DNA of 64,000 bases from a virus. Every line of letters begins with the position of its first letter. Positions within the stretch are counted from its first letter, which is position 1. Below the pieces are notes generated by a model. The model did not search any database. It was given only the letters and a program-made list of their open reading frames with translations, and was not told the DNA's origin. Positions 39,474 through 63,481 of the stretch are shown piece by piece. A program made the position numbers and the translations under genes. The DNA is taken from the IMG/VR virus record IMGVR_UViG_3300046648_000377, positions 1 through 64,000 of that record. One strand, given 5' to 3'.

Positions 39474-39738
39474 TAGAGATCTCCAGACGGATATCGGTCA
39501 TGGCGGCATGGATGCCGGCCTGGTCTTTCTGCAGGGCGAACGTGTTGCCCTGTTCCCGTGTCAGGTCGCCCTGGCGCTGGGCGAGACCCTTGTTCACGGT
39601 GTCCGTGATCGCATCGGTTCGAGCGTCGGCCGCGACAGCTTCCGCCTTCGAGCTGCTGGAACCGCCGGCGCGCCAACCGATGAAGATGCCCAGGGCAAAC
39701 GCCACGAGGACCGCGGCCAAGATCGTCGCGGGTTTCAT
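39337..39738 (-). CDS. Rz: Inner-membrane spanin subunit (Rz-like)
   Basis: The 133-residue protein has an N-terminal membrane anchor (TILAAVLVAFALGIFIGWRAG) and a periplasmic helical part (SSKAEAVAADARTDAITDTVNKGLAQRQGDLTREQ) fitting an i-spanin coiled coil. ATG 39738 follows GGGAGA. It overlaps the endolysin gene by 4 nt and shares its 3' third with Rz1 in another frame. Partner of the Rz1-like lipoprotein. Confidence 0.8.
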   Translation of the reverse strand: MKPATILAAVLVAFALGIFIGWRAGGSSSSKAEAVAADARTDAITDTVNKGLAQRQGDLTREQGNTFALQKDQAGIHAAMTDIRLEISNARFDPPASAGVCPDPVGSDDFIRLYNAAGSAHRSTGDPASATSR

Positions 39739-40235
39739 GGCTGATCTCCCGTGCAAAGCGAGTATTCCCACTCACGACGATCGGGTATGCCTGGGCAGCC
39801 GCTCGAAGCAATACGGCAATCCTTGCCGCCAGCGCGGTACCACAGCGGAATCTGGGCGCAGGCGCGCTTGTTCTCGCCCGCGTTGAGCAGGCGAGCAGCC
39901 GTCGAGTTGCAGAAGTTGGCAGTGCCGACGTTGTAGGCGAAGTCGCCCCAGGCCCTGATCTCGTGGAACTCGAGCTCGGTGTGAACACACCCACCCATGT
40001 GCCCGAGCATCTTCGTGACGTAGGCCGCTTCGAGCCCATCGCACTCAGCCTTGGTGTACGTCTTGCCGGGGATGACATCGGGGCCGGTGATGCCGGCGCA
40101 GACGGTCCACACGTGACCGAGCTTGTCCCAATACGGGACATACTTTCGTCCCTCATGCGCAGGGAGCGAGGCGACGATGGCCATGACCAGCGCGACCCCA
40201 GCAGCGGCGAACGATGTCTTCCCCACCTTAGCCAT
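39735..40235 (-). CDS. SAR-type endolysin, GH24 lysozyme
   Basis: The 166-residue muramidase cleaves peptidoglycan. The N-terminal weakly hydrophobic segment (FAAAGVALVMAIVASLPA, ~9-26) directly precedes the catalytic motif: Glu28, Asp37, Thr44 (E-x8-D-x6-T, one residue longer than the usual E-x8-D-x5-T). Such a segment, rich in Ala and without Arg/Lys, is a signal-arrest-release sequence that lets the enzyme reach the periplasm and stay inactive until the membrane is depolarised. Several Cys residues may form regulatory disulfides. It follows the holin-like gene with an 8-nt overlap. Confidence 0.9.
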   Translation of the reverse strand: MAKVGKTSFAAAGVALVMAIVASLPAHEGRKYVPYWDKLGHVWTVCAGITGPDVIPGKTYTKAECDGLEAAYVTKMLGHMGGCVHTELEFHEIRAWGDFAYNVGTANFCNSTAARLLNAGENKRACAQIPLWYRAGGKDCRIASSGCPGIPDRREWEYSLCTGDQP

Positions 40236-40461
40236 CGACCTTCGGCCTCCTGGTTACGACGCGGCCGATGAAGGTGGCCACCGAGACCACGGCGCCGGCG
40301 ATGAATACCCACCGAAGCGGGACAATGCCCACGAGGGGTAGCGCCAACTTCATGCCGCCTGCGACGCACGCGAGTACGGTGTGTGTAGACGTGGACACCG
40401 CACTCAGCTGCACGGAGGCCCATTTCCAGGCGCTGCGCCAATCGTCGACCAGCTTGATCAT
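40228..40461 (-). CDS. Holin-like protein (DUF7940-type)
   Basis: The 77-residue protein starts MIKLVDDWRSAWKWASVQLS, the typical start of DUF7940 phage proteins. Two hydrophobic segments follow (THTVLACVAGGMKLALPLVGI and WVFIAGAVVSVATFIGRVV). Size, two membrane segments and position just before the endolysin make it the holin candidate (probably pinholin, as the endolysin has a SAR domain). Confidence 0.78.
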   Translation of the reverse strand: MIKLVDDWRSAWKWASVQLSAVSTSTHTVLACVAGGMKLALPLVGIVPLRWVFIAGAVVSVATFIGRVVTRRPKVDG

Positions 40462-40718
40462 TGCGTCTCCCCGTCCTGGTTAATGCCGAGCAGCTGTTCG
40501 AGCTTCACGGCGTATGCCTTCCAGTCCGCCGCGTTCTTGCTGGTAGACGGCTTGGACTTCGCAACCGTCGGCGCGGGCGCCTGGCACACCGGGACGGGCA
40601 ACTCCACGTTGACGGTCGCGCTTGGCGTCGGCTTCGTCGGTGCCGGGGCCTTCGGCGGGGCGGCCGCGCATGCGGACACGAGCGCCAGCATCAGCAGGGC
40701 GACTGGGCGGCGAGTCAC
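40458..40718 (-). CDS. Small lipoprotein in the lysis cassette
   Basis: An 86-residue protein with a lipoprotein signal (LMLALVSAC, Cys17) and a Pro/Lys-rich mature start (APPKAPAPTKPTPS), followed by a short helix (ADWKAYAVKLEQLLGI). It resembles an o-spanin in design, yet a complete Rz/Rz1 pair lies further along the operon. It could be a second o-spanin-like or regulatory lipoprotein. It overlaps both neighbours by 4 nt. Confidence 0.65.
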   Translation of the reverse strand: MTRRPVALLMLALVSACAAAPPKAPAPTKPTPSATVNVELPVPVCQAPAPTVAKSKPSTSKNAADWKAYAVKLEQLLGINQDGETQ

Positions 40719-41083
40719 TGCGCGGGCCTCGACTTCTGCACTTCCTGCGTGGCTGCCTGTTTCAGGTAGCCGAGGTCGAACTCGTTCTGCGTAACCCGAC
40801 GGTCTATCGACTGAAGCGCCAGCACTGAGGCGTCGCTCACCTTCTGAAGGTTGTCGACCTTGGCCGTCGTATCGTGCTGAGTCAGCGTTAGATCCTGGGT
40901 CCGCTGCGAAGCGACCTTGATGTCGTCACGCATCTCGCGAACGTAGCCGGTGGCCAGGGCGATCGAACCGGTCACCGTGGTTGTGACGAGCACCTTCGCG
41001 ACGATCCATAGCAGGCGCGCGCTCGCGGTCTCACCAATGCGCTGCAGTGCCCCGATCGGAGGGGTGGGTGTGTTTTCGGACAT
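40715..41083 (-). CDS. Membrane-anchored coiled-coil protein, first late gene
   Basis: The 122-residue protein has one membrane segment (~25-46, LWIVAKVLVTTTVTGSIALATG) and a ~70-residue coiled-coil-like tail (SQRTQDLTLTQHDTTAKVDNLQ). Placed directly ahead of the lysis genes, it may be an antiholin, a class III holin-like protein or a membrane regulator. It is the first gene of the late transcript. AAGGAAACG precedes ATG 41083. Confidence 0.65.
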   Translation of the reverse strand: MSENTPTPPIGALQRIGETASARLLWIVAKVLVTTTVTGSIALATGYVREMRDDIKVASQRTQDLTLTQHDTTAKVDNLQKVSDASVLALQSIDRRVTQNEFDLGYLKQAATQEVQKSRPAQ

Positions 41084-41263
41084 GGGCGTTTCCTTGGTGG
41101 CGAGAAAGGCTCATGCCTTGGAAAGGATGCGGCGGACGCGCGACGTCGGCCCGGGGAGGTGGCCGCTTATCGATCTAGGGGGTCACGTCTTTTGTAGGTC
41201 GCAGCGCTGCTGTGTCTCACGACACTGCATGGAGGGCGCGTTCAGCCGGCCGCAAAGTAGAAA

Positions 41264-41297
41264 CGAAAAAGCCCCGGCGCACATCGCGTCGGGGCTT
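41264..41297 (-). terminator. Leader terminator ahead of the late operon (tR'-like)
   Basis: On the minus strand AAGCCCCGACGC-GATGT-GCGCCGGGGCTT (41297-41269; one mismatch) is followed by TTTTT. It is a strong intrinsic terminator between the late promoter (41357-41329) and the first late gene (41083), so late transcription needs antitermination. Confidence 0.85.
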
Positions 41298-41328
41298 AGA
41301 ATCTCGGAGGGATTCGTGGTTGTGGTGA

Positions 41329-41357
41329 TTTGTAGGCCGTGTGCACGCCGGTGTCAA
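41329..41357 (-). promoter_or_regulatory. Late promoter (pR'-like), TTGACA-N17-TACAAA
   Basis: On the minus strand TTGACA (41357-41352) and TACAAA (41334-41329) are exactly 17 bp apart, a near-consensus sigma70 promoter. Predicted start ~41322 gives a ~55-nt transcript up to the terminator. The layout equals lambda pR'-tR', where Q protein lets polymerase read through. Confidence 0.75.
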
Positions 41358-41379
41358 CACGTGCGCGCACTTGAATAGG

Positions 41380-41419
41380 TGTGCGCGTGATGTGCGAATC
41401 ATGTGCGCGGTGATGTGCG
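41380..41419. repeat. GTGCGCG-type direct repeats upstream of the late promoter
   Basis: TGTGCGCGTGATGTGCG (41380-41396) and TGTGCGCGGTGATGTGCG (41402-41419) form two near-identical direct repeats, 22 bp apart, and CACGTGCGCGCAC lies next to them. They sit between the candidate Q-like gene and the promoter -35 and could be binding sites for a late activator or antiterminator. Confidence 0.5.
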
Positions 41420-41429
41420 TGAAAGCGGA

Positions 41430-41957
41430 CTATAGCGCCCGAACTGCCTGAGTCGCCCCTTCCTCTGCTTGCGTCTCCACGAAGCCAGCAATCCACTCGT
41501 ACAGCGCGCGATAGACGCTTTCATTCATACGCACGCTTGCCGATGCTTCCTTCCAAGACCGCACGGGACGCACCAGTGCCATGTCGTGGAAGACATCGTG
41601 CAGCACCAGCCTTATCCGGTACTGGCGATGGTGCGCGACCAGGCTACGCATCGCTGCACTGTTGCGTAGATCGGTGAGGATCCGCGGGACGGCGAGCTCA
41701 TGGATCTTCTTCCACTCGGCGGCGGTTTGGCATGAGAGCGCCAGCGCCAGGCACTGCATCAGCGGATCAGTGATGAAGTTGAGGGCTTGGGACAAATCGT
41801 CAGCACCGACCGAAAGGCTTCGCGACGCGCGGCCCACCGTAGGCTCGCGGAACGTACTCCCACCCGCTAGGCGCGAGAGACGTTCAAGCGCACCGCGGCC
41901 ATCGAGCACGGACGTTTCCAGGGCGCGTCGTGGCCCTCGGGAGTTGCGGGTGGTCAT
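41430..41957 (-). CDS. Possible late regulator (Q-analogue by position)
   Basis: The 175-residue, mostly helical protein (for example DDLSQALNFITDPLMQCLALAL, RILTDLRNSAAMRSLVAHHRQ, VYRALYEWIAGFVETQ) has no recognised domain. ATG 41957 is set by a TGATG overlap with the DUF1064 gene. It is the last gene before the TTGACA-N17-TACAAA promoter and its downstream terminator, exactly where lambda-like phages encode Q. I infer an antiterminator or late activator role from this position alone. Confidence 0.6.
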   Translation of the reverse strand: MTTRNSRGPRRALETSVLDGRGALERLSRLAGGSTFREPTVGRASRSLSVGADDLSQALNFITDPLMQCLALALSCQTAAEWKKIHELAVPRILTDLRNSAAMRSLVAHHRQYRIRLVLHDVFHDMALVRPVRSWKEASASVRMNESVYRALYEWIAGFVETQAEEGATQAVRAL

Positions 41958-42364
41958 CAGGCGAGCACGATCCGAATCGGGTAGTGGTGCTCGACCTCGC
42001 GCTTCTTGAGGCGGAAGACCTGCGTCTCCCTGCCCTTTACGTCGACGTACTCCGCGAGGCGCACGGCGTCCTTGAAGAACACGAGGAAGTCGATGACGTA
42101 GCGCGTGCCGCCGGGGAGGTAGATCGGCACCTGGCGCAGGAAATACCACACCTCGCCGGAGGCCTGCCGAAGCTTCAGCTGCTCGTAGTAGCGAGCCTCC
42201 TTCTTGCTGTCGAACCGGATGCCGTCGACGACGGTGGGCTGATTCCGATACTTCCGCGGTGGTTCGACTTGTGGGGTTGCTGCAGCGCCGATCTGGGCCT
42301 CGATGCGCTGCCGCAACGCCGGCGGCAACACATCCATGCTGGTGAACCGGAGTCCGTTGCTCAC
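41957..42364 (-). CDS. DUF1064 putative nuclease (PD-(D/E)XK-like)
   Basis: The 135-residue protein has the DUF1064 pattern: KYRNQPTVVDGIRFDSKKEARYYEQLKLR, a strand with YVIDFLVFF, and EYVDVKGRETQVFRLKKREVE. The D...D-x-K arrangement (VIDF, VDVKG) is that of restriction-endonuclease-like folds, and the family is suspected of Holliday-junction or replication-intermediate processing. GTG 42364 overlaps the previous stop by 4 nt. It lies in the replication operon, which supports such a role. Confidence 0.8.
   Translation of the reverse strand: MSNGLRFTSMDVLPPALRQRIEAQIGAAATPQVEPPRKYRNQPTVVDGIRFDSKKEARYYEQLKLRQASGEVWYFLRQVPIYLPGGTRYVIDFLVFFKDAVRLAEYVDVKGRETQVFRLKKREVEHHYPIRIVLA

Positions 42365-63339: not shown

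Positions 63340-63481
<142 letters not shown>

Follow-up and report, generated by a model that had tools for sequence, protein, structure and literature searches.

A predicted Q-type antiterminator of a further, sequence-distinct family at a phage late promoter preceded by direct repeats

Introduction

Which protein, if any, carries transcription into the late genes of a phage whose gene at the Q position matches no antiterminator family by sequence? The question is raised by the minus-strand locus 41264-41957 in a 64,000-nucleotide stretch of viral DNA (positions 1 to 64,000 of IMG/VR record IMGVR_UViG_3300046648_000377; hereafter, the window). The Q proteins of phages lambda, 21 and 82 and the AlpA protein share a common mechanism without sequence similarity, and the authors of the AlpA study predicted that structure-based annotation would uncover more such proteins (PMC9371919). 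Below we present the evidence that the gene at 41430-41957 very probably encodes a Q-type processive antiterminator of an unnamed sequence family, and describe an array of repeats upstream of its promoter.

Results and discussion

Late promoter, terminator and gene order

The elements of the putative late switch are the following:

41357-41352, minus strand: -35 element TTGACA of the late promoter (pR'-like, inferred), from the sequence and a scan
41351-41335, minus strand: 17-bp spacer of the late promoter, CCGGCGTGCACACGGCC
41334-41329, minus strand: -10 element TACAAA of the late promoter, from the sequence and a scan
about 41322, minus strand: predicted transcription start
41312-41318, minus strand: CACGAAT, candidate -10-like (sigma-dependent) pause element at about +5 to +11, read from the sequence
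41266-41297, minus strand: intrinsic terminator (tR'-like), an 11-pair hairpin (41297-41269) with one mismatch, then TTTTT

The sequence-only reading of this locus had placed a TTGACA-N17-TACAAA promoter on the minus strand, an intrinsic terminator about 30 bp after the predicted start and the lysis genes behind it, and all three are indeed found there. The promoter, at 41357-41329, scores 10 out of 12, its -10 element being without the usual final T; a fixed-rule scan for promoters and terminators, in which this final T was required, listed neither element, and both were found by direct inspection and a custom scan. Only two promoters with a score of at least 10/12 are present on the two strands of the 64 kb, and only the one reading TTGACA-N17-TACAAA has a terminator in the 110 bp behind it. 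The terminator hairpin begins about 26 nt past the predicted start, has a dG of -19.8 kcal/mol (z -3.9) and has five consecutive T residues behind it. L002, the nearest relative, shares the promoter-terminator block with the window at 96% identity, compared with 78% for the Q-position gene at the DNA level. The CACGAAT sequence, the position of which rests on the predicted start, is similar to CACGAT, at which polymerase pauses on the alpB promoter (PMC9371919), and, by this likeness, is a candidate sigma-dependent pause element.

The genes on both sides of the promoter, in the order of transcription, are:

41957..42364, minus strand: DUF1064 Holliday-junction-resolvase-like nuclease, the upstream neighbour (Pfam PF06356, E 9e-16; phrog_190, E 2e-28)
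41430..41957, minus strand: predicted Q-like antiterminator gene, 175 aa (open frame, predicted fold, homologues similarly placed in other phages)
40715..41083, minus strand: first gene of the late operon, 122 aa, family-less, conserved in L002
40458..40718, minus strand: small protein with a weak match to Rz-like spanins (phrog_812, E 0.006)
40228..40461, minus strand: holin (phrog_1356 holin, E 1e-10; Pfam DUF7940)
39735..40235, minus strand: endolysin (phrog_7 endolysin, E 3e-35)

The lysis genes behind the terminator, spanin-like, holin and endolysin, are assigned by these PHROG and Pfam matches, and the first late gene (40715-41083) has no family match in either Pfam or PHROGs. Past the endolysin, a second weak spanin-like gene is followed on the same strand by the small and large terminase subunits. 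In the opposite direction, the ATG of 41430-41957 overlaps the stop codon of the DUF1064 nuclease gene, upstream of which we observe a family-less gene, a P-like helicase loader, CII-like and YdaS/Cro-like regulators, and a divergent CI-like repressor. The gene order of the window is lambdoid, and 41430-41957 occupies the Q position.

A 117-nt direct repeat (98%) is present at 1288-1404 and 63340-63456, 62 kb apart, with the second copy overlapping a tRNA-Ser(cga) gene at 63392-63481. These repeats look like the attL and attR sites of a prophage integrated in tRNA-Ser.

A Q-position protein without a match in sequence-family libraries

The gene had been described as lacking any known domain, and this description holds: none of the families in Pfam, PHROGs and NCBIfam fits the 175-aa protein or any of 11 homologues, and antiterminator matches are absent at E values up to 10. 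A match to an unrelated family, sought as evidence against the antiterminator reading, was not found in these searches. Phage_antitermQ (PF06530) was matched neither in the window's record nor in 12 family members, so that membership in PF06530 was rejected for want of a profile match. Searches of 50,697 phage records with three family members, among them a tblastn search with the 175-aa protein, gave no match; sequence search against PDB chains returned chance matches only; and two scans of bacterial genome contigs (alignments A2 and A4), which are insensitive given that they use short DNA patterns, yielded no relative.

Comparison with lambda Q at the profile level gave a marginal signal. 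Using hhalign against 11 lambda Q relatives, we obtained probabilities of 2-4% (p 0.01-0.02), and one of 100 column-shuffled controls did as well as the real profile. The best local alignment pairs both N-terminal segments in the order implied by the structures (LE...P..R[AS][TS]...L...D[VIL]..A; p 0.02); the N-terminal part of Q-type proteins forms the nozzle (PMC9371919). Ten divergent phage records were used to obtain the lambda Q relatives because a scan of viral contigs gave near-identical copies only. The 175-aa protein contains no CXXC motif; in the lambda Q relatives of the alignment, two or more CXXC pairs are retained. Membership in the lambda Q sequence family (PF03589) was rejected as well, the protein showing neither the profile match nor the mid-protein CXXC zinc finger.

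Predicted fold

An AlphaFold2 model of the 175-aa protein, built from 12 sequences, is helical (mean pLDDT 77.7), with a conserved, low-confidence loop at residues 36-46 and a C-terminal helix-turn-helix. With this model, Foldseek placed lambda Q first and AlpA third among 350,542 PDB chains, with weak E-values (0.5-0.8). Structural alignment with VIA-align gave lambda Q (7ubn_Q) a Z score of 9.4 over 149 residues at 5.7 A and AlpA a Z score of 7.7 over 134 residues, followed by a designed protein at 5.8. In the viral library BFVD, the first match bears the name 'Antitermination protein Q', with an E value of 0.009 and a probability of 1.00.

A second model was built for the full-length relative L066, which is about 24% identical to the window protein. 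Here, lambda Q reached a Z score of 11.2 over 132 residues at 3.4 A, and AlpA was again second (7.7 over 120 residues; next row 5.8), so that lambda Q is first and AlpA second by Z in both models; Foldseek alone ranked lambda Q only third for the L066 model. Most alignment rows are common to the two models, which hence are not fully independent, and Z scores of 9-11 can arise by chance among all-helical proteins; the fold argument rests on the same two antiterminators heading both Z lists, together with the genomic context. The Q protein of phage 21 (21Q) is not among the structure matches listed, an absence that does not count against the similarity.

Recurrence of the layout in relatives

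The Q-like protein family was found in more than 30 viral contigs. The homologues range from 81% identity to the window protein (L001 and L002) through 52% (L036) and 40% (L005) to a divergent group at about 20-25%, some members of which have cysteine zinc-ribbon motifs fused at the N terminus. Many homologues are encoded directly or shortly downstream of the same DUF1064 nuclease gene. A promoter, a short leader and a terminator follow the Q-like gene in L002, L005 and L036: the promoter-terminator block is nearly unchanged in L002 and the fragment L032, and L005 and L036 have their own promoters and terminators of the same type (dG -21.4 and -20.0, respectively). In the zinc-ribbon group, the gene is followed by an inserted gene, a promoter-like sequence, a strong hairpin with a T-rich stretch, and then tRNA-Met; in L066, by a promoter-like sequence, tRNA-Met, a hairpin, and then a frame that, as read from the sequence, resembles an N-acetylmuramoyl-L-alanine amidase (endolysin). 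The promoters of L066 and of the zinc-ribbon group match the consensus poorly.

The module of Q-position gene, late promoter, immediate terminator and lysis genes is observed in the window, L002, L005 and L036; L056-type loci and L066 also have it, with a gene or tRNA inserted. The promoter-terminator-lysis layout is kept with the Q-like gene down to about 22-25% identity. Together, the predicted fold and the layout that recurs in the relatives give good support to the original proposal of a new or distant antiterminator family.

Several features of the relatives deserve mention in their own right. The inferred late promoter is immediately followed by a tRNA-Met(cat) gene in L041, L042, L043, L051, L056, L057, L059, L066, L203 and L207, a placement reminiscent of other lambdoid phages, in which tRNA genes behind pR' occur. 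In L006-L024, L061 and L066, the Q-like domain is fused to N-terminal CXXC zinc-ribbon motifs, and these fusions produce a weak match to Lar-like restriction-alleviation proteins (phrog_599, E 0.03). Finally, in L209-L214, zinc-ribbon Q-like genes are followed by tRNA-Tyr/tRNA-Gly and apparent host genes, with no late operon seen; these loci are possibly prophage remnants or, alternatively, instances in which the protein serves a chromosomal role similar to that of AlpA.

Leader RNA behind the terminator

In most relatives, the leader RNA past the late terminator (and past the tRNA, where present) contains a hairpin with a GTGA tetraloop within a longer outer stem (L056, 5827-5935; L040, 6408-6518; L061, 5400-5512). 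The counterpart in the window is:

41213..41224, minus strand: late-leader hairpin TGTC-GTGA-GACA with a tetraloop, shared by most relatives

The outer stem pair of this hairpin changes from U-A to C-G between relatives, and two-sided compensatory changes are seen in 9 of the 22 predicted pairs of the leader RNA, for which Rfam contains no match at the gathering score. This conserved, structured leader RNA may take part in the switch.

A repeat array upstream of the late promoter

To the reading of the locus as promoter, terminator and Q gene, we add one feature, an array of short direct repeats:

41360..41419, minus strand: CGCACA-type direct-repeat array upstream of the -35 element, with copies starting at 41419, 41407, 41396, 41385 and 41365
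41338..41347, minus strand: CGTGCACACG, candidate Q-binding element in the -35/-10 spacer, in register with the last upstream copy at a distance of 20 bp

The copies in the window are spaced by 12, 11, 11 and 20 bp, the last of them reading CGCACG, and a related TGCACA is located 20 bp beyond it, inside the promoter spacer. A match to the array motif as good as that in the spacer is found in 3.6% of same-size windows for the window and 2.9% for L036, the match in L056 being weak; a search of the L066 promoter spacer for a copy of the array motif found none.

Repeats upstream of the late promoter were observed in all eight relatives examined, often with a spacing of about 11 or 20-22 bp and with a motif that varies by subfamily. 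L002 has one more copy of the motif and a longer repeat, CGCGCACATG (repeat family D2, on which the spacer candidate CGTGCACACG also rests), spaced by 22, 20 and 20 bp; in L066, a different site, CCACAGGTGG, occurs four times at spacings of 22, 21 and 22 bp; the zinc-ribbon group has two perfect 14-bp palindromes, TTCCTCATGAGGAA, 20 bp apart; L203 has CCCCATCCG at spacings of 12, 42 and 11; and L207 has an ACTGGGG motif. In a motif-free test on array regions that had been selected after looking at the sequence, a repeated 8-mer was over-represented at 8 of 8 late promoters (equalled in 0-3 of 200 shuffles; 0 of 200 for the window); among 102 windows drawn at random from these loci, only 3 reached p <=0.02. 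Lambda pR' showed no excess in the same test (72 of 200 shuffles). L209-L214 were left out because tRNA-Tyr/tRNA-Gly and host-like genes, not a late operon, follow their Q-like genes.

For the palindromes, the distribution could be examined on a larger scale. The tandem form of this subfamily's palindrome is present in 16 of 2.9 million viral contigs, 15 of which, when compared by contig name, carry the Q-like gene; in the 16th, the array is located 313 bp from the contig end. The 16 contigs are related, and the co-occurrence with the gene accordingly does not amount to independent evidence for each. In six whole records, the palindrome pair (<=2 mismatches) is found at the late promoter only, the sole exception being a single copy with two mismatches in three of the records, and therefore does not mark the immunity region.

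Taken together, these observations moderately favour the view that the upstream arrays are reiterated binding sites for the Q-like protein. The strongest competing explanation concerns the array alone and is compatible with antitermination: the Q-like protein would act at the spacer only, and the array would serve a phage repressor, a CII-like protein, a host nucleoid protein or, as iterons, replication. Arrays of direct repeats at 10-11 bp are indeed also typical of CII-like activators and replication initiators, and the perfect 14-bp palindromes of the zinc-ribbon group look like repressor operators. However, the CGCACA-type motif clusters nowhere else in the window, the palindrome pair is confined to the late promoter as described above, and every examined relative has an array at this promoter even though its sequence differs by subfamily. 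We consider a role of the array for another regulator rather unlikely, albeit worth keeping in mind.

Proposed mechanism

If 21Q, lambda Q and AlpA (PMC6606751, PMC9371919, PMC7969949) are taken as models, the Q-like protein and its promoter would operate as follows. The late promoter would be constitutive and, without the protein, transcripts would stop about 55 nt on, at the terminator. RNA polymerase would pause just past initiation and there be engaged by the protein bound at its site in the -35/-10 spacer; the protein would then form a nozzle on RNA polymerase, and the modified polymerase would read past the terminator into the lysis, packaging and virion genes. The upstream repeats would most likely be extra copies of the same binding site, placed on approximately the same side of the helix, and would serve to load the protein or to concentrate it. 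Binding of the protein to the array is the step of this scheme held with least confidence. A more speculative possibility, somewhat less likely than not, is a reiterated operator on which several protomers would occupy a row of sites in helical phase, from about 95 bp upstream as far as the spacer. Such a switch might, and this is put forward with the same reserve, respond cooperatively to the level of the protein or combine activation with antitermination.

An improbable alternative is that the protein binds DNA to activate the late promoter, recruiting polymerase from the array, with the terminator only trimming background transcription. The array does lie upstream of the -35 element, where activators bind, its copies are in helical register, the protein has a predicted C-terminal helix-turn-helix, and the promoters of L066 and the zinc-ribbon group are far from consensus. 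Nevertheless, the promoter of the window, with its consensus -35 element and 10/12 score, should need no activator; a terminator right behind the start would defeat simple activation; and the match to the antiterminator fold spans nearly the whole chain, the flexible N-terminal part included. Least of all do we expect the fold match to be a helical-bundle coincidence and the gene an unrelated nin-region protein at the Q position: the PDB Foldseek E-values exceed 0.1 and there is no significant match to a sequence family, but two models of proteins about 24% identical both put the same two antiterminators first by Z, the first match in the viral library is annotated as Q, and the gene recurs together with promoter, terminator and array.

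Comparison with known systems

The Q-like gene is best called a further, sequence-distinct Q-type antiterminator family with an unusual promoter architecture. Lacking an entry in Pfam, PHROGs or NCBIfam as well as a match among GenBank phage records, and being recognisable by fold and by promoter-terminator context, it is a case of what the authors of the AlpA study predicted.

The closest likeness is to lambda Q (Antiterm, PF03589; lambda/P22 type), the fold of which is similar to the predicted one over nearly the whole chain: both have a flexible, conserved N-terminal segment, a helical core and a C-terminal helix-turn-helix, all predicted in the case of the window protein. The lambda Q gene is likewise located between the early nin/nuclease genes and lysis, with a promoter and, at once, a terminator behind it. 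In contrast to the window protein, lambda Q contains a zinc finger in the middle of the protein, and the distant relatives of the window protein have zinc-ribbon motifs at the N terminus instead; furthermore, the window promoter has a repeat array, whereas the same test finds none at lambda pR'.

AlpA of Pseudomonas aeruginosa (PDB 7xyb; PMC7969949, PMC9371919) is the second-best fold match, with a score not far above those of unrelated rows. Like the window protein, it is a single domain of about 170 residues without a zinc finger; its element lies between -35 and -10, as would be expected here, and in both systems a terminator precedes the lysis genes. The two differ in that AlpA is a chromosomal regulator of cell death, whereas the window gene appears to be a phage late switch, and in that the window promoter has an upstream array, which the compared passages of PMC7969949 and PMC9371919 do not mention for AlpA. 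Assignment to AlpA by sequence or by site was rejected, the AlpA site GGGACG-N5-GGTA (PMC7969949) being absent from the spacer CCGGCGTGCACACGGCC.

GafZ, the antiterminator of the Caulobacter gene transfer agent (PMC11150451), shares with the proposed window protein the role in antitermination of a phage-like late operon. Its promoter has a palindromic element between -10 and -35 and an activator site further upstream, which is bound by GafY, a second protein with which GafZ works (PMC11150451). According to its authors, GafZ resembles neither Q nor AlpA in sequence or structure (PMC11150451).

The precedent for repeated sites is 21Q (PDB 6JNX, 6P19; PMC6606751), which recognizes a direct-repeat promoter site and forms a two-protomer loading complex. 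The 21Q site consists of two 6-bp repeats (TGAGCA) 8 bp apart, inside the promoter, whereas here four to six copies reach about 65 bp upstream of the -35 element. If these arrays are operators, they would define a Q system with multiple loading sites, not described in the literature compared here, in which the dependence of Q recruitment on the number and phase of the sites is open to direct tests.
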